This document shows, piece by piece, positions 8,617 to 64,000 of a stretch of DNA of 64,000 nt. The notes under the pieces are model-generated. The model was not told the DNA's origin. It ran no database searches and saw nothing but the letters and a program-made list of their open reading frames with translations. This stretch comes from Gordius sp. MW1 (taxonomy: Eukaryota > Nematomorpha > Gordioida > Gordea > Gordiidae): positions 17,670,168 to 17,734,167 of the forward strand of contig OZ038531.1 in the NCBI GenBank assembly GCA_964036665.1, given 5' to 3'. How positions within the stretch are numbered: the stretch's first letter is position 1; the number at the start of each line of letters is the position of its first letter. The position numbers and the translations under genes were made by a program.

Positions 8617-8790
8617 CATGCTCAATTGCTAACTACTCATCAGTTATACTCACCTATTCTTACCAGAACTCACCTATTCACATAAACATCAGAAAGCAGC
8701 TGATATTACCGTTTGTTTTTAATTTTTGAAGTGTAAAATGTCTATTATGAGTACATTAAAGTTAATATTGGAAAAGATACGCGTGTTTAA

Positions 8791-8892
8791 TATAAATGTC
8801 GATGTAGTAATTGTTCTGTAAGAGGTTTCTACTTAAATGAAAATTTTACCTTAACCCATGAGCAAGATATTATCCCACATAAAAGTAATTTA
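8791..8892 (+). pseudogene. FLYWCH-like zinc-finger relic
   Basis: One frame reads YKCRCSNCSVRGFY followed by a FTLTHEQDIIPH block. The pattern is Cys-x4-Cys, an RGFY turn, and a final His. It matches the ORF in the palindrome at 15.3/17.7 kb, which reads YRCRVNDCGGRGFY and then RAHDNLPH. FLYWCH fingers occur in Mutator-like transposases and in host factors. Only this short coding stretch is recognisable, and it has no start codon of its own. It is followed by tandem repeats, as in the palindrome arms. Confidence 0.5.
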
Positions 8893-9400
8893 TAATTATT
8901 TTTACTTATTTTATATATAGCTATCCAAACTAAGGATCCATTGATAAACCTTTAAAACATTTATATCTACTTCAACCATTTTCACATCCCATAGTTGTAA
9001 GCTAATTAATTTTAATATAATTATTTGACTTATCAAATTATTGATAATATCCCACATAAAATTATTTTATATATAGCTTATCCAAACTATGGATCCATTG
9101 ATGAACCTCTACAAACATTTATATCTACTTCAACCATTTTCACATCCCATAGTTGTAAGCTAATTAATTTTAATATAATTATTTGACTCATCAAATATTT
9201 AGTTGATAATATCCCACATAAAAGTAATTTATAATTACTTATTTTATATATAGCTTTTCTAAACTATATAAGATAGTTGAATACAAATTCAACATTTATG
9301 TGTTGTAGATGTATTTAGGATAGCTATGGAACAAAATAGGTGCAGTGTTATATCTACTTCAACCATTTTCACATCCCATACTTGTAAGGTTAAAAAAATA
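8868..9400 (+). repeat. Tandem ~180 bp repeats after the FLYWCH relic
   Basis: Two to three copies of a unit with ATCCCACATAAAA, TATATAGCT, AAACTATGGATCCATTGATG, ATATCTACTTCAACC and CACATCCCATAG. The unit resembles, in order, the sequence after the FLYWCH ORF in the palindrome (AATTATGGATTGATACC, ATCTACCTATATCCCAT), so the two minisatellites look homologous. Confidence 0.7.
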
Positions 9401-9760
9401 TATTATAATCTTTATAGATTGTGCCTCTGGTCATCCTCAGTTTGCTACTGCCTTGCCTCCCACCATTTTTACATCCCATAGTTTTTGCTTTCATTATATA
9501 ATATTCATAATTTACGTTGTGCAATTTGTAAACTCTATTTTTTGATGTTTTGTTAATATTAAAAAGGATTGTCTTATTTTTTAATAATGTTTTTAACATA
9601 TCTGATTGTGTCCAATATATGTTATTGCTGATAATTTTCATCGCTTGATGTTATAAATTATTACCATAGACTAAGATTATTACAGTCTGTAAGTTATAAG
9701 TAGAGCCGTGTAACAAGTTGGAACTATTTCATTTTTTAAATGTAACTAACAAAAATAACT

Positions 9761-14755: not shown

Positions 14756-14986
14756 AAATCGGGGTCAAAGTCGCAGAAAAAAAGCAGCAGAATTGGTCAG
14801 AACTGGTCAGATCAAGATTTTAGATAATCAATATATTAGAATTAAATCTCAAATGGGGAAGGAATTTGATGTGATCTAACCCTAACCCGAACCTAAAACA
14901 CTAACCCTAACCCTTTTGACCAATCTTGATCTGACCAGTTCTGACCAATTCTGCTGCTTTTTTTTCTGCGACTTTGACCGGTTCCC
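14756..14986. mobile_element. 231 bp palindromic MITE
   Basis: The arms are inverted over about 55 bases: GGTCAAAGTCGCAG, then AGCAGCAGAATTGGTCAG, then AACTGGTCAGATCAAGATT, mirrored at 14915-14977. The 8-mer TTTTATTT occurs on both sides (14748-14755 and 14987-14994), fitting an 8 bp TSD. The centre holds CCCTAACCC-type sequence. Confidence 0.75.
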
Positions 14987-15068
14987 TTTTATTTCATGTA
15001 TTTTATAATTTTAATATGTACCAAAATGCGCTATTTGTAGCGTTTGAGCATAGCAATTGGTGCCCTAT

Positions 15069-15205
15069 CAACTCGCCGAAAAATAATGTCCCCCAGCTAA
15101 AAAAAGGTCCCCAAGCTTATTAACCCTAACCCATCAACCAATCACAAATTTGGGGACATTTTTTAGCTGGGGGACATTATTTTCGGCGAGATTGTTATCG
15201 GCGAG
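15069..15205. mobile_element. 137 bp MITE at the left end of the palindrome
   Basis: Inverted ends TCAACTCGCCGA...TCGGCGAGTTGA, with inner inverted blocks ATAATGTCCCCCAGCTAAAA. A second copy lies in the right arm at about 17911-18032, in inverted orientation and truncated after AGCTGGGGG. Confidence 0.8.
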
Positions 15206-15327
15206 TTGACGGGCCACCTTAGCAATTGAGTAGGATATTAGCATCCGTACCAAGTCAAACGTTATAAAGACACTAAATATAAAAATAACTAATAATAACT
15301 AAAAACCCTAAAAACACCTATTGTAAT

Positions 15328-15570
15328 ATGAATCACGTTCATTTTACTCTATCCCAAAAAAAGAAAACCAATTTTAGTTTATCAAATTATCATTATATAA
15401 ACGTCAATAATGGCACAGATACAAAATCTTACTACAGATGTAGAGTAAATGATTGTGGTGGCAGAGGTTTCTATTCAGATGCAAGGTTTACAATGACACG
15501 TGCACATGACAATCTCCCACATAAAAGTATTTTAATATTAATTTACTTATTATATTATGGAGTACCCTAA
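15328..15570 (+). CDS. FLYWCH-like zinc-finger ORF, left arm
   Basis: An 80-codon ORF starting MNHVHFTLSQKKK. Residues 20-65 have the FLYWCH layout: aromatic residues, SYYRCRVNDCGGRGFY (Cys-x4-Cys), then RAHDNLPH supplying two His. FLYWCH fingers bind DNA and are found in Mutator-like transposases and in metazoan regulators. After HKS the frame runs into low-complexity residues and stops, so this is probably one exon or a fragment. The identical peptide is encoded in the right arm. The sequence does not show whether it is expressed. Confidence 0.55.
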   Translation: MNHVHFTLSQKKKTNFSLSNYHYINVNNGTDTKSYYRCRVNDCGGRGFYSDARFTMTRAHDNLPHKSILILIYLLYYGVP

Positions 15571-15590
15571 TTATGGATTGATACCTTTAG

Positions 15591-16460
15591 ATCTACCTAT
15601 ATCCCATTTGAGTAATTTAATTTAAAAATTTATATCATCATTTCTATAGACAGTGGATCTATACAACCATCCCACGTAAATGATGAAACAAATCTACCTA
15701 TATCCCATTTGAGTAATTTAATTTAGAAACTTATATCATCATTTCTATAGACAGTGGATCTATAGAATCATCTTACTTAAATGATGCAACAAATCGACCT
15801 ATATCCCATTTGAGTAATTTAATTTAAAAACTTATATCATCATTTCTATAGACAGTGGATCTATACAATCATCTTACTTAAATCATGCAACAAATCTACC
15901 TATATCCCATTTGAGTAATTTAATTTAAAAACTTATATCATCATTTCTATAGACAGTGGATCTATACAATCATCATACTTAAATCATGCAACAAATCAAC
16001 CTATATCCCATTTGAGTAATTTAATTTAAAAACTTATATCATCATTTCTATAGACAGTGGATCTATACAATCATCTTACTTAAATCATGCAACAAATCTA
16101 CCTATATCCCATTTGAGTAATTTAATTTAAAAACTTATATCATCATTTCTATAGACAGTGGATCTATACAATCATCTTACTTAAATCATGCAACAAATCT
16201 ACCTATATCCCATTTGAGTTATTTAATTTAAAAACTTATATCATAATTTCTATATACAGTGGATCTATACAATCATCTTACTTAAATGAAGCAACAAATC
16301 TACCTATATCCCATTTGAGTTATTTAATTTAAAAACTTATATCATAATTTCTATAGACAGTGGATCTATACAATCATCTTACTTAAATGATGCAACAAAT
16401 CTACCTATATCCCATTTGAGTAATTTAATTTAAAAGCTTATATCATAATTTCTATTGACA
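15591..16460 (+). repeat. ~101 bp minisatellite, nine copies (left arm)
   Basis: The unit contains ATCTACCTATATCCCATTTG, AGTAATTTAATTTAAAAACT, TATATCATCATTTCTATAGA, CAGTGGATCTATACAATCAT and TTAAATCATGCAACAA. TATCCCATTTGAG recurs every 101 bases from 15601 to 16409. Confidence 0.93.
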
Positions 16461-16969
16461 GTGTATCCGTTTATATGTATTTACAATCTCATGAATCAAT
16501 TACAACCATATAAATAAAATTTATTTCTAGTTTTTTATAAATTTTTATAGTAAGGTGTGTTTTTCATCTTAATTATTAATCACAATCTTATTAATAAATA
16601 TTGCCAATTCTAGTTTAGGTTTAAGGAAATCAAATATCACTATCTTCAAGGATCTATTTGTAAAAAGAAATTAGTAAAATAATTTTCTGTAAAATAAATG
16701 TCGCTTGCTTATTATGATTAGTCCTTGAAATAAAACTAAAAGATCATTTGATAATGTTTATTTACAAACATAAACAATAAAATCTCAAAATAAATTTTAT
16801 ATGCCCCGTATTAATAAGATTGTGATTAATAATTAAGATGAAAAACACACCTTACTATAAAAATTTATAAAAAACTAGAAATAAATTTTATTTATATGGT
16901 TGTAATTGATTCATGAGATTGTAAATACATATAAACGGATACACTGTCAATAGAAATTATGATATAAGT

Positions 16970-17515
16970 TTTTAAATTAAATTACTCAAATGGGATATAG
17001 GTAGATTTGTTGCATCATTTAAGTAAGATGATTGTATAGATCCACTGTCAATAGAAATTATGATATAAGTTTTTAATTTAAATTACTCAAATGGGATATA
17101 GATAGATTTGTTGCATCATTTAAGTAAGATGATTGTATAGATCCACTGTCTATAGAAATTATGATATAAGTTTTAAAATTAAATTACTCAAATGGGATAT
17201 AGGTAGATTTGTTGCATCATTTAAGTAAGATGATTGTATAGATCCACTGTCTATAGAAATTATGATATAAGTTTTTAAATTAAATTACTCAAATGGGATA
17301 TAGGTAGATTTGTTGCATCATTTAAGTAAGATGATTCTATAGATCCACTGTCTATAGAAATGATGATATAAGTTTCTAAATTAAATTACTCAAATGGGAT
17401 ATAGGTAGATTTGTTTCATCATTTACGTGGGATGGTTGTATAGATCCACTGTCTATAGAAATGATGATATAAATTTTTAAATTAAATTACTCAAATGGGA
17501 TATAGGTAGATTTAA
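16970..17515 (-). repeat. ~101 bp minisatellite, six copies (right arm)
   Basis: Same unit as in the left arm, in inverse orientation, with six copies of ACTCAAATGGGATA. Small substitutions distinguish the units, so the arms are not a perfect mirror here. Confidence 0.92.
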
Positions 17516-17531
17516 AGGTATCAATCCATAA

Positions 17532-17774
17532 TTAGGGTACTCCATAATATAATAAGTAAATTAATATTAAAATACTTTTATGTGGGAGATTGTCATGTGC
17601 ACGTGTCATTGTAAACCTTGCATCTGAATAGAAACCTCTGCCACCACAATCATTTACTCTACATCTGTAGTAAGATTTTGTATCTGTGCCATTATTGACG
17701 TTTATATAATGATAATTTGATAAACTAAAATTGGTTTTCTTTTTTTGGGATAGAGTAAAATGAACGTGATTCAT
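17532..17774 (-). CDS. FLYWCH-like zinc-finger ORF, right arm
   Basis: Mirror copy of the 80-codon ORF at 15328-15570, with an identical predicted peptide. The tandem repeats next to it have diverged in number and sequence, so identity of the ORFs points to recent duplication or gene conversion between arms. Family reasoning is as for the left copy. Confidence 0.55.
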   Translation of the reverse strand: MNHVHFTLSQKKKTNFSLSNYHYINVNNGTDTKSYYRCRVNDCGGRGFYSDARFTMTRAHDNLPHKSILILIYLLYYGVP

Positions 17775-18045
17775 ATTACAATAGGTGTTTTTAGGGCTTT
17801 TAGTTATTTTTAGTTATTATTAGTTATTTTTAGTTATTTTTATATTTAGTGTCTTTATAACGTTTGACTTGGTACGGATGCTAATATTCTACTCAATTGC
17901 TAAGGTGGCCCGTCAACTCGCCGAAAACAATCTCGCCGAAAATAATGTCCCCCAGCTAAAAAATGTCCCCAAATTTGTGATTGGTTGATGGGTTAGGGTT
18001 AATAAGCTTGGGGACCTTTTTTTAGCTGGGGGAATTTCCCATTAT

Positions 18046-18263
18046 TCCATTATTGACTTTTATATAATGAAACTAAAATTGGTTTTCTTTTTTTGGGATA
18101 GAGTAAAATGAACGTGATTCATATTACAATAGGTGTTTTTAGGGTTTTTAGGTATTTTTAGTTATTTTTAGGTATTTTTAGTTTTTTTTAGTTATTTTTA
18201 GGTATTTTTAGTTATTTTTAGTTGTTTTATATTTAGTGTCTTTATAACGTTTGACTTGGTACG
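18046..18263 (-). repeat. Third, truncated copy of the FLYWCH-element end
   Basis: This repeats the sequence at about 17692-17875, from ATTGACTTTTATATAATG through the TTTTTGGGATAGAGTAAAATG block to TTTGACTTGGTACG. It is in the same orientation as the right arm. A short repeat, TTAGTTATTTTTAGGTATTT, is expanded here. It ends 33 bases before the KLHL20 start codon. Confidence 0.8.
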
Positions 18264-18296: not shown

Positions 18297-21200
18297 ATGA
18301 TGGGAGATATAATTAAAGGACATCCAAATACCGATATTATAAATACTTTGGAACATAGCAAATTATGTAGATTATCTTATTCGAATAATCGTATAATTCA
18401 TATTGCAAATAAATATCCGCAACATGTTATTATTCAAATGAACTTATTGAGGGAACGAAAAGAATTATGTGATGTGATGATTAAAGTTGGACCTAGGTGC
18501 TTACATGCCCATAGGTAACATATTCAGATAAAAAATGTATTATTTGATATTAAGAATTTAAAAAAAAGATACAAATACATTTTAATTGTGTACTTTTATC
18601 AGACAATTTTGATATAGAAATGATTATTGTTATATTTTAGCATTTAATACACAATTATTTGGCAACAAACCTCTATTAGTGTTAAAAAAATTTTAAAACT
18701 AAATATTTTATTCAGTGTTTTATAAAAATGCATTTATCTAATACTTTCCTATGTATACTAATTTGGGTTATAAGTTTACTATGAAAAGTTTACCGAAGCA
18801 TTTATAGTTGTTTAATTTAGTAAAAAAAAAAAAAAGGAGTAATCAGCAGAATGATCATAATGAAAATGTATTAAGATGACATTATTCTGATAATGATGAG
18901 AATATGAAAATAATAAGCCAGGGATAATAAGAGAAATGGGGTATCTATATTGATAAGTTATGTTATAAAAGGTAGGGGGAAAGGAGGGAATTTAGCACAA
19001 AACCTAACCAAACAAACAAATATTTTTACCAACTCAATTTTTATTCAAGTTTTAAAATATATAATTCTACAAATAATATAAAACTGAATTTTAATATGTA
19101 GAAATAATATATAACTAAAATTTATAATAATTAAATGATTCATCTTTCATATATCACAAATATGACAATGGTTTTTATTATTATTAATAAATTTTATTAA
19201 CTTTAAAGCAAATCTTAAAAACTTATTAAATCTTTTAGAGCAATACTAAGTGCGGCTTCTCCTTACTTTTATGCTATGTTTACTGGGAATATGTCAGAGA
19301 GTAAAGATTCTGAGATCACAATCCATGAAGTTTCAGACCTCGCAATTGAACAATTAATTGGTAATAACATTCTTCGAAAAAGCTATTCATAAAAAAAATA
19401 ACATTTTGGCCTACGTACCAATGACCTGTTTTTATTTTTAAATTACAGATTTCATCTACACTGCTACTATTGTTATTGAAGAGGGGAATGTACAAACTTT
19501 GCTCCCAGCTGCCTGCCTGCTCCAAATGATAGATATACAGGAGGCCTGTTGCGAGTTTTTGAAAAATCAACTCGACCCAACAAATTGTTTGGGCATCAGA
19601 GCATTTGCCGACACTCATTCGTGCCGAGAATTGTTAAAGATTGCAGATCAGTTTACACAAAACAACTTTTTAGAAGTTAATATTTTCATATATTTCCAAA
19701 TATGATGTTTTAGATATTTTAGCTATTCAACCTTTTATAATATAGGTATATATCTTATCAAGCCTATTTGTTAAAATTATAAATTTGATAAAAGTTGTAA
19801 GCGTATATATTTAGTGATATGCTGAATAGAAATCTCCCCAACACCATTTAAGCTTGGTCCCCCACTGAACAAACAAACTGTAATTCTTTTAATTGTGTTA
19901 AATCAAATGACTAAATTATAAGTTTCTTCCCTCTGAATGCAATAATTAGGCTTGGGTTATTAATTTTGCCCAGCTTTTGCTATCTTCCTAAAATATTTAA
20001 TACTATGTGGGCCCTCTCTTTTCGAAATTTATAGTTTACATAAATAATTTTTAATACAAAAGTTGTTTCTAATACTCTAATTTTCTTTTATTACTATTAT
20101 TAATTTAGGTGGAAAAAACCTCAAATTTTTCGCTGAAAATATGTAATTTATCTATTTAGGTGATAATTAACGAAGAATTTTTGCTGTTACCCTATGAACA
20201 ATTGATTGAAATCCTGTCCAGCGATGAGCTAAACGTGCGCAACGAAGAGCAAGTATTCAAAGCCGTAATGGCTTGGATCAAATACAAGCTACCCGATCGA
20301 GAACTTCTGCTTTACTACGTATTGTGTTTTAATTTACTCATGTTTGTTAATTTAATGTATTGTTGATTTAAATACGACTTCGGTTCGGATTTATGTAAAG
20401 AGGGCCCGATTTACGACGTGGTAACCGTGAATCAAATAATAATAATAATAACAATTCTTATTAAAATGCCATCTAGGACACAATTTAAATTAGAGACTAG
20501 ACTAGTTTGGCAAAATTATCCCTATCTCTTAGAATGTGACTCGAAACTGAAAACAGAACTTACATTCCCCCCTAACATCAAATTTCTTAAAAAAACACAC
20601 ACAAAATTTTAAGTTTAAAACACGAAAATTGAATTTTTATTAAATGAAAAACAAATTCAAAAAACGAGGTTTTTCCAGCGTAGAGTTATAGTTTAAAATT
20701 TGGGCTTTGCTAACCGAAAATATCAAATTCCCCAAACTAACTTTGCTCAGTAGAAAATTGAAATAGCTTAAGATTTTAAAAAGCATAATTCTCACATTTC
20801 AATTATTTTAAAACTAACCACGGTTTCGCAATATAAAAATTTTGTTTGACTTCTAATAATGTCGGTCACTTTGCGATCACTTTAGTCATTGCCTCGTTTT
20901 CGGCCAATTTGCCTCATATTTTTATAAAATTTGGTTAGAGTACCACTAGTTTTTGAGTTATAGGCGGTCTAAGTAAAAACCGATCATTTAAGACATCGGT
21001 TCATGACGCTATATTCGATAAAATTTAAAACAATCGGACGAAGCGCAAATATTTAGGCTCGAACGGGGTCCGAAAAATTAAGCCCAACCAGCGGTCATTA
21101 GTTAGTTTTTATTCGGAACCAAATAAGTTCCTTTACAGAAGCATATCTTTCCAATGCTGGACAGGACATGACAGGATTTTGGCCTCGGGCCAGGGTCAGA

Positions 21201-61326: not shown

Positions 61327-64000
61327 GAGGTAAATGTCATAATCTATGTTTATGATGCGATTTAAATTTTTTCTCAAATTGTGACTCACTGAGAGCTTAA
61401 AAAATGTTTTTCACCTTTGAAATTAAGATTTTTAAAAGATTAGCGGTCGCCCAGGTGACAAATGTCATAATCTATGTTTATGATGGGATTTAACTTTTTT
61501 CCAAATTGTGACTCACTAAGAACTTAAAAAATGTTTTTCACCTTTGAAATCAAGATTTTTGAAAGTTTAGCGGTCGCCCAGGTGACAAATGTCATAATCT
61601 ATGTTTATGATGCGATTTAAATTTTTTTTTCAAATTGTGACTCACTAAGAACTTAAAAAATGTTTTTCACCTTTGAAATTAAGATTTTTAAAAGTTTAGC
61701 GATCGCCTAGGTGACAAATGTCATAAATCATAATCTATGTTTATTATGCGATTTAAATTTTTTTTTTAAATTGTGACTCACTAAGCGCTTAAAAAATGTT
61801 TTTCACTCTTGAAATCAAGATTTTTGAAAGTTTAGCGGTCGCCCAGGTGACAAATGTCATAATCTACATTTATGATGCGATTTAAATTTTTTTTTTAAAT
61901 TGTGACTCACTAAGCGCTTAAAAAATGTTTTTCACCTTTGAAATTAAGATTTTTAAAAGTTTAGCGGTCGCCCAGGTGACAAATGTCATAATCTATGTTT
62001 ATGATGGGATTTAAATTTTTTTTTGAAATTGTAACTCTAAGAACTAAAAAAATGTTTTTCACCTTTGAAATCAAGATTTTTGAAAGTTTAGCGGTCGCTC
62101 AGGTGACAAATGTCATAATCTATGTTTATGATGCGATTTAAATTTTTTTTTGAAATTGTGACTCACTAAGAACTTAAAAAATGTTTTTCACCTTTGAAAT
62201 TAAGATTTTTAAAAGTTTAGCGGTCGCCCAGGTGACAAATGTCATAATCTACATTTATGATGCTATTTAAATTTTTTTTAAATTGTGACTCACTAAGCGC
62301 TTAAAAAATGTTTTTCACCTTTGAAATTAAGATTTTTTAAAGTTTAGCGGTCGCCCAGGTGACAAATGTCATAATCTACATTTATGATGCGATTTAAATT
62401 TTTTTTTCAAATTGTGACTCACTATCACTAGGAGCTTAAAAAATGTTTTTCACTCTTGAAATCAAGATTTTTGAAAGTTTAGCGGTCGCTCAGGTGACAA
62501 ATGTCATAATCTACATTTATGATGCGATTTAAATTTTTTTTTAATGACTCACTAAGCGCTTAAAAAATGTTTTTCATCTTTGAAATAAAGATTTTTGAAA
62601 GTTTAGCGGTCGCCCAGGTGACAAATGTCATATACATTTATGATGCGATTTAAATTTTTTTTTCAAATTGTGACTCACTAGGAGCTTAAAAAATGTTTTT
62701 CACCTTTGAAATCAAGATTTTTGAAAGTTTAGCGGTCGCCCAGGTGACAAATGCCATAATCTATGTTTATGATGCGATTTAAATTTTTTTTTGAAATTGT
62801 GACTCACTAAGAACTTAAAAAATGTTTTTCACCTTTGAAATTAAGATTTTTAAAAGTTTAGCGGTCGCTCAGGTGACAAATGTCATAATCTACATTTATG
62901 ATGCGATTTAAATTTTTTTTTTAAATTGTGACTCACTAAGCGCTTAAAAAATGTTTTTCATCTTTGAAATAAAGATTTTTGAAAGTTTAGCGGTCGCCCA
63001 GGTGACAAATGTCATATACATTTATGATGCGATTTAAATTTTTTTTTCAAATTGTGACTCACTAGGAGCTTAAAAAATGTTTTTCACCTTTGAAATCAAG
63101 ATTTTTGAAAGTTTAGCGGTCGCCCAGGTGACAAATGCCATAATCTATGTTTATGATGCGATTTAAATTTTTTTTTGAAATTGTGACTCACTAAGAACTT
63201 AAAAAATGTTTTTCACCTTTGAAATTAAGATTTTTAAAAGTTTAGCGGTCGCCCAGGTGACAAATGTCATAATCTACATTTATGATGAGATTTAAATTTT
63301 TTTTTCAAATTGTGACTCACTATCACTAGGAGCTTAAAAAATGTTTTTCACTCTTGAAATCAAGATTTTTGAAAGTTTAGCGGTCGCTCAGGTGACAAAT
63401 GTCATAATCTACATTTATGATGCGATTTAAATTTTTTTTTTAAATTGTGACTCACTAAGCGCTTAAAAAATGTTTTTCATCTTTGAAATTAAGATTTTTG
63501 AAAGTTTAGCGGTCGCCCAGGTGACAAATGTCATAATCTACATTTATGATGCGATTTAAATTTTTTTTTCAAATTGTGACTCACTAGGAGCTTAAAAAAT
63601 GTTTTTCACCTTTGAAATCAAGATTTTTGAAAGTTTAGCGGTCGCCCAGGTGACAAATGTCATAATCTATGTTTATGATGCGATTTAAATTTTTTTTTCA
63701 AATTGTGACTCACTAAGAACTTAAAAAATGTTTTTCACCTTTGAAATTAAGATTTTTAAAAGTTTAGCGGTCGCCTAGGTGACAAATGTCATAATGTATG
63801 TTTATTATGCGATTTAAATTTTTTTTTTAAATTGTGACTCAATAAGCGCTTAAATAATGTTTTTCACTCTTGAAATCAAGATTTTTGAAAGTTTAGCGGT
63901 CGCCCAGGTGACAAATGTCATAATCTACATTTATGATGCGATTTAAATTTTTTTTTCAAATTGTGACTCACTATCATTAGGAGCTTAAAAAATGTTTTTC
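61327..64000. repeat. ~129 bp satellite array, continues past the window
   Basis: About 20 units, each with TTTAGCGGTCGCCCAGG, TGACAAATGTCA, a CATAATCTA block, TTTATGATGCGATTTAAA, a T run, TGTGACTCACTA and AAAAAATGTTTTTCAC. Units differ at set positions (CTATGTTTATGATG or CTACATTTATGATG; AAGAACTT, AAGCGCTT or AGGAGCTT). TGACAAATGTCA is a short palindrome in every unit. The array has a higher-order pattern. Confidence 0.97.

Follow-up and report, generated by a model that had tools for sequence, protein, structure and literature searches.

A palindrome in the genome of Gordius sp. MW1 (Nematomorpha) is formed by two inverted copies of the left part of a DNA transposon that, judged by its domains and target duplications, is a Phantom-like FLYWCH/Mutator-like element (MULE). 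The palindrome lies in a 64,000-nt stretch of DNA (GenBank assembly GCA_964036665.1, contig OZ038531.1, positions 17,670,168 to 17,734,167), hereafter the window, and positions within it are counted from its first letter (Table 1). The window copy is dead and non-autonomous, a one-off tail-to-tail inverted duplication, and does not represent a new type of element. Intact copies carry, after the FLYWCH open reading frame (ORF), 101-bp repeats that are probably coding, in the form of tandem mini-exons. For the joint reading, in which a dead MULE copy makes up the palindrome, the array is coding in the intact element, the encoded linker acts as a tether and the palindrome arose by template switching, we estimate a probability of about 0.8.

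The genome was searched as a 212-Mb assembly of 12 contigs, with the window on C5. The arm sequence has at least 105 matches, many of them separate array pieces from one and the same copy of the element, and the spacer between the arms has 31, including the window itself. The initial annotation had proposed a genome search for the FLYWCH ORF with its repeats, and this search found that some 30 other places carry a related element. In the stretches compared, the element begins with a left end followed by variable 10-bp repeats and the FLYWCH ORF; after these come the 101-bp array, a tail and a right end, and the two ends form a short imperfect inverted repeat. Apart from the nested pair L034/L019, the other copies have a single orientation in the fetched stretches. 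Both ends could be inspected in 10 copies, one end being missing or not resolved in the other fetched copies, and 9-bp target duplications flank eight of the 10 (L031, L032, the nested copy in L034, L035, L036, L040, L042, and L044); the duplication of L039 is 8 bp long, and L033 has lost its right end. The window copy itself has no direct target duplication pair, and the 9 bp that adjoin it are inverted across the palindrome.

A MULE domain was detected at at least 128 places in the genome (150 of 202 candidates were scored), nine of them directly downstream of arm matches belonging to the arm's family. In L038, L039, L040, L043, and L044, Pfam identifies a second FLYWCH domain and a MULE transposase past the array, and L037, L041, and L045 carry damaged versions of this part. 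The MULE domain (PF10551), which is absent from the window copy, scores 30.4 bits in the full-length partners against a cut-off of 27.6, and the FLYWCH domain (PF04500) scores 26.9 bits in the FLYWCH-2 exon and 23.8 bits in FLYWCH-1 against a cut-off of 23.6. The gene order in full-length copies is therefore FLYWCH-1, 101-bp array, FLYWCH-2, and MULE transposase. Given these full-length partners, the short copies and both arms of the palindrome derive from a Phantom-like MULE by internal deletion or truncation. Other insertions were seen among the copies: in L034 (C2:3556000-3565900) an element with a 9-bp duplication is nested antisense in the FLYWCH ORF of another copy, which produces an ordinary palindrome-like layout, and in L042 (C6:7666000-7673000) an apparent Gypsy-type long terminal repeat retroelement, judged by its reading frames, interrupts the predicted mini-exon array of a deleted copy. 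Pairs of a 16-bp end motif in opposite orientation, 150-200 bp apart, are probably small miniature inverted-repeat transposable elements (MITEs) of the same MULE family.

The 101-bp unit is predicted to comprise a 63-nt phase-1 exon, which follows an AG and holds 21 codons, and a 38-nt intron bounded by GT and AG. This partition was first made by eye, and units were then placed by BLAST for counting. In the family of the arms (family A), the count covered 133 units from 17 sequences, two of which are the arms, with the short loci L001-L030 and L034 left out. The phase-1 frame is open in 129 of these units, compared with 0 and 9 for the two remaining frames; the exon is a multiple of three in 130, the GT is present in 126 and the AG in 122. 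In the palindrome, the frame is open in 8/8 aligned units of the left array (GT 8/8, AG 6/8) and in 5/5 of the right array (GT 5/5, AG 3/5). The same partition recurs in seven diverged loci that form six groups (L046, L047, L048, L065, L066, and L067 with L068), where 42 of 42 units are open in phase 1, 41 have exons that are a multiple of three, 41 have the GT, and 36 the AG. The unit periods of these six groups are 101, 101, 155, 98, 151, and 121 or 125 bp, and their consensus exons measure 66, 66, 120, 60, 114, and 78 nt, compared with 63 nt in family A. Further copies have consensus exons of 42-81 nt, and array introns across families are mostly 35-46 nt long. Several exon length variants stay in frame (63/66/72 and 60/63 nt), the exceptions being three exons of 62 nt in A and one of 49 nt in D65. 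Units of A, B, and L070 retain traces of a common origin; the remaining units look unrelated by eye. The recurrence of arrays in diverged families with mostly unrelated units suggests that spacing, and not sequence, is kept.

Among the more distant loci, L064 and L071 have similar arrays with shorter or older exons, and L073 is a member of the F group; no comparable array is visible in the fetched stretches of L072 and L074, nor is a second FLYWCH exon in that of L074. In L046 and L047 the consensus introns are identical over 35 nt and the exons differ at 9/66 sites, as if the introns were more homogenised.

The predicted exons also fit the domains on either side of them. The FLYWCH-1 donor is in phase 1 in all 10 elements mapped, and the FLYWCH-2 acceptor in 15 of 15. 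In the conserved part of the transposase, a first intron located from protein homology measures 35-43 nt and is bounded by GT..AG in 13 of 15 copies, with two not resolved; most array introns are of similar length. MULE-bearing copies have arrays of about 2 to 15 units, which would correspond to about 40 to 300 residues between the zinc fingers. The repeats, called minisatellites in the initial annotation, are indeed 101 bp long and unequal in number in the two arms; they are probably part of the same gene, and not a neutral neighbour of the ORF.

Three further comparisons bear on the mini-exon prediction. Partition by chance was measured on dinucleotide shuffles under a strict rule (a GTRA donor and phase 1) and a loose rule (any GT and phase 1). 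Under the strict rule, shuffles of eight units could be partitioned at frequencies of 0.023, 0.059, 0.101, 0.057, 0.048, 0.022, 0.025, and 0.184, the last being for a short unit. The strict rule was also applied mechanically to 21 non-redundant tandem arrays from the window and L031-L074, with the position class assigned by us: 8 of 10 arrays between FLYWCH exons pass, all on the sense strand, compared with 1 of 11 others on either strand (p 0.0019). Two of the passing rows are one L064 array, and merging them gives p 0.0045. The junction at intron 1 is the strongest single check. In L040 (family A) and in L046, predicted splicing of this intron connects FLYWCH-1 with YPNYG, giving PHKKYPNYG and PHKTYPNYGCIDEP, and L074 has the homologous junction LHKSYPNYGCIAEP uninterrupted by an intron. 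A first intron is also possible in four other families, which have no YPNYG, the nearest being L067. Finally, the predicted repeat peptides (one per array, n=8) contain 47-69% S/T/N/P/Q and 0-5% charged residues, compared with 25% and 24% in the two FLYWCH domains and transposase, and both composition values are reached by 0-1% of random open segments of the window.

The arrays could alternatively be ordinary non-coding minisatellites, lying in an intron or between separate FLYWCH accessory and transposase genes and maintained by slippage alone. Minisatellites are reported in MULE-type elements, namely aphid Phantom and Rehavkus (PMC6446971), and in a baculovirus element the FLYWCH domain and the transposase are reported to occupy different ORFs. 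The repeats show no amino-acid constraint within families, and their codon positions vary without a consistent pattern. Such constraint-free repeats would fit both a linker that tolerates any uncharged sequence and a non-coding array. We nevertheless consider this explanation unlikely: frame, phase, length, and splice signals agree across several families despite mostly unrelated units, the first junction has an unspliced homologue, the peptides are nearly free of charge, and the 117-bp array of L070 is open across 166 aa even when unspliced.

Several other observations weigh against mini-exons. The partition by eye preceded the counts, and units within one array are not independent. The loose rule allows shuffles to be partitioned at frequencies of 0.11-0.73, and under the strict rule the F-group consensus and the decayed relic at window position 8906 fail. 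Two L037 arrays and one L074 array lie physically downstream of FLYWCH-1, in DNA taken as inserted; counting them as inside raises p to 0.024 and then to 0.067-0.070 (two-sided). A second frame is likewise open throughout the 17 units of B46 and B47, the acceptor AG is missing from 3 of 4 aligned C48 units, possibly as an effect of alignment, and the exons of L071 are spaced 88-388 nt apart compared with 35-46 nt elsewhere. Synonymous changes fall below expectation, with 4 compared with 6.5 expected in MULE-bearing copies and 2 compared with 5.7 in deleted copies. The arrays show no sign of stop avoidance: in family A, stops arise from 0/24, 1/22, and, pooled, 1/37 distinct changes, with 0.7, 1.1, and 1.9 expected. 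Stop avoidance was dropped as a proof of coding for lack of statistical power, and a ratio of nonsynonymous to synonymous substitution rates (dN/dS) of 0.41 among eight old L071 mini-exons is biased by the peptide-motif filter and was not used as evidence. A published table that lists the Rehavkus minisatellite as 'in Cterm' (PMC6446971) indicates that a protein-associated repeat may already be known in a MULE relative.

If the 101-bp arrays are mini-exons, the full-length gene product would comprise FLYWCH finger 1, a number n of uncharged S/T/N/P-rich repeats, FLYWCH finger 2, and the MULE transposase. Slippage and unequal exchange in the array would add or remove whole exon-intron units with the frame intact, so that linker length would vary from copy to copy. 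Because gain or loss of a whole unit keeps the frame, a minisatellite process could change protein length safely. The most likely role of the linker would be that of a flexible tether, tolerant of sequence change, which connects two DNA-binding fingers and could bring them to sites spaced at different intervals, for example across the variable 10-bp end repeats. If true, gain and loss of exon-intron units would be a simple DNA mechanism for altering the reach of a DNA-binding enzyme, and whether linker length determines transposition behaviour becomes testable. Minisatellites in transposons are usually dismissed as non-coding, and repeat masking of such arrays would conceal the gene.

Table 1 Features of the palindrome and its surroundings in the window.
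Feature	Position	Strand	Basis
MITE from a separate high-copy family, left copy, within the palindrome	15055..15221	.	genome matches
9 bp beside the left element end; reverse complement at 17877-17885 past the right end	15237..15245	+	
Left arm: MULE left end, FLYWCH-1 exon, predicted mini-exon array, and start of tail; right half of element absent	15246..16808	+	
80-aa ORF, damaged FLYWCH-1 exon continuing into splice-dead predicted first intron	15328..15570	+	ORF list, family alignment
Predicted first intron of the family; 3' splice acceptor lost in both arms	15527..15560	+	family alignment, intact copies' intron
101-bp array of left arm, 8.7 units of predicted mini-exons (63 nt) and introns (38 nt)	15591..16467	+	
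Unpaired palindrome spacer, MULE tail sequence matching 30 other places in the genome	16597..16808	+	
Right arm, in which the left part of the element recurs inverted	16809..17876	-	
101-bp array of right arm, 5.7 units	16938..17513	-	
80-aa ORF of right arm, identical to that of left arm	17532..17774	-	ORF list
Inverted flank and MITE; palindrome stops within the MITE end	17877..18033	.	
Third, partial element copy: left end and part of FLYWCH exon	about 18047..18263	-	alignment

A palindrome with the same 80-aa ORF in each arm and unequal 101-bp arrays had been described in the initial annotation, and it is present as such in the assembly sequence. The arms span 15089-16596 and 16809-18033, with overlapping blocks that are 97-98% complementary, and are separated by a spacer of 212 nt. 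With the arrays left out of the alignment, the only differences over 502/520 nt are two substitutions and two 10-bp repeat units, and the inner part of the arms does not differ at any of 157 nt. The proposal that a larger segment underwent inverted duplication is borne out, with both the flank and the MITE inverted inside the palindrome. Copies of this MITE elsewhere in the genome match window positions 15072-15218, and some 15055-15221, at up to 99%; the family has 771 first-look candidates genome-wide, 40 of which were scored. The inversion of flank and MITE, together with the recurrence of the 9 bp next to the element as their reverse complement (read from the sequence), shows that DNA was duplicated in place to form the palindrome, which did not result from transposition. 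The third element copy lies just outside the palindrome in the same orientation as the right arm, with its own flank, and has one private indel in common with both arms that occurs in 0/25 other aligned rows.

The palindrome most likely formed by template switching during replication, with a U-turn inside the tail of the element and a second switch from the MITE into the neighbouring inverted copy. Template switching would account both for the layout and for the missing right half of the element. By eye, short shared sequences appear to lie at both junctions. Palindromes are a known class of assembly artefact, and a read that folded back on itself, or the joining of two haplotypes in inverted orientation, could in principle produce the same picture. 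We consider an artefact quite improbable, since the arms are set apart by three 101-bp units as well as by the two substitutions and the two 10-bp units, the outer junction continues into different sequence, and the contigs encountered span 21-37 Mb. The palindrome could also be a mobile foldback transposon, the arms being its long terminal inverted repeats. Both of its element ends are genuine left ends, and long inverted ends that carry repeats are described for foldback-like and Phantom elements (Tm1, PMC3169594). Against this, the centre junction of the palindrome occurs only once in the genome in a search that allowed up to three mismatches, the inverted flank and MITE extend the palindrome past the element ends with the would-be target duplication inverted, and the other fetched copies, except for the one nested pair, have a single orientation. 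The palindrome as a mobile unit was rejected on the unique centre and the inverted flank, and we regard it as very improbable.

The 80-aa ORF was proposed to encode a zinc-finger peptide that is held identical in the two arms by selection or gene conversion. The first proposal stands in part: Pfam gives no match for the window ORF, and two intact relatives match FLYWCH barely above the cut-off (23.8 and 25.8 bits, compared with 23.6). The second is not borne out. The arms encode the same 80 aa, but the ORF differs at 0/243 columns compared with 2/414 elsewhere outside the arrays (Fisher p 0.53), and because its identity is no higher than that of the rest of the arm, the identity indicates recent duplication only. 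The ORF is also damaged in both arms relative to the family. In an alignment of the arms and third copy with 26 loci, 24 of which yielded 25 rows, the FLYWCH domain of both arms has two private indels that shift the frame and compensate each other and that are found in 0/25 other rows, and both arms have lost the first-intron acceptor that is kept in 24/24 scorable rows. The comparison of synonymous with nonsynonymous changes among copies, suggested in the same annotation, gave values near 1 within the family: for 17 sequences, with two pairs not computable, dN/dS of the ORF is 0.7-1.8 within the family (for pairs with a synonymous change). Selection on the arm ORF was rejected on these private indels, the lost acceptor, dN/dS, and the Fisher test, and we consider it, like gene conversion, extremely improbable as a cause of the identity. 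Between families, dN/dS is 0.22-0.58. The FLYWCH exon is stop-free in 34 of the 35 best rows, two of which are the arms, with the start codon absent from some, and at least three further, lower-ranked, decayed copies of the family have stops in this exon. Read from these sequence comparisons, selection has kept the FLYWCH exon through the long history of the transposon lineage, and not in the palindrome.

Other repeats and genes were seen in the window. Positions 8717-9500 hold the remains of a member of another, diverged FLYWCH/MULE family; its FLYWCH exon contains a stop, and a 158-bp unit that has exon-like parts occurs twice. To the left of the palindrome, at 14777-14964, a perfect 43-nt inverted repeat surrounds telomere-like CCCTAA stretches and is probably another MITE. 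To its right, at 18297-19702, ORFs with a BTB-like domain (under the Pfam cut-off) and a BACK domain adjoin the third partial copy. A 129-bp satellite occupies 61332-64000 with 20.6 copies and continues past the end of the window.

Iterated exon-intron units that evolve together are found in spider flagelliform silk, which is a host structural gene and not a transposase. No report of mini-exon arrays in a transposase was found among the matches listed in our literature search. The Phantom MULEs Tm1 from Meloidogyne (PMC3169594) and Muta1 from Aedes (PMC5225508) resemble the Gordius element in having a MULE transposase, short subterminal tandem repeats, and internally deleted copies. FLYWCH is stated for Phantom MULEs (PMC3169594), as in the present element, their target duplications of 8-10 bp include the 9 bp seen here, and Tm1 likewise has non-inverted bases at its very ends. 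In contrast to these elements, the Gordius element has two FLYWCH domains with a mini-exon array predicted between them, and its terminal repeats are short and imperfect; the accessible Phantom descriptions (PMC3169594, PMC5225508) contain nothing similar to the array. The aphid Phantom and Rehavkus elements are also MULE-type elements with a minisatellite (PMC6446971), which follows the transposase ORF in aphid Phantom and precedes the 3' inverted repeat in Rehavkus. In Gordius the array is located between the FLYWCH exons and looks coding.

The palindrome as a whole had been thought to have no described counterpart, but the Mu killer locus of maize (PMC3440606) is such a parallel. Both are partial inverted MULE duplications with the same end twice: in each, the gene-proximal part is inverted, the gene-proximal end forms the terminus on either side, and two incomplete copies of the gene face each other in inverted orientation. 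Unlike maize Mu killer, the palindrome in the window also includes the flank and the MITE. It might therefore be a silencing locus of the same kind, whose hairpin RNA would give rise to small RNAs against the active MULE family. The 22-mers of the arms match perfectly over 437-1392 nt in each of eight MULE-bearing copies and have no match in the diverged L046 and L047; because they match copies of the family, hairpin RNA could in principle act on it. Any inverted duplication of a multicopy element would give such matches, and nothing points to selection keeping the locus, so that we find a silencing role rather doubtful. A broader proposal seems still more doubtful, namely that this MULE lineage keeps architecture and not sequence, with a tether tuned by slippage and the palindrome as an animal Mu killer that feeds repeat-rich hairpin RNA. 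The palindrome nevertheless offers an animal case in which the idea drawn from maize Mu killer can be tested.

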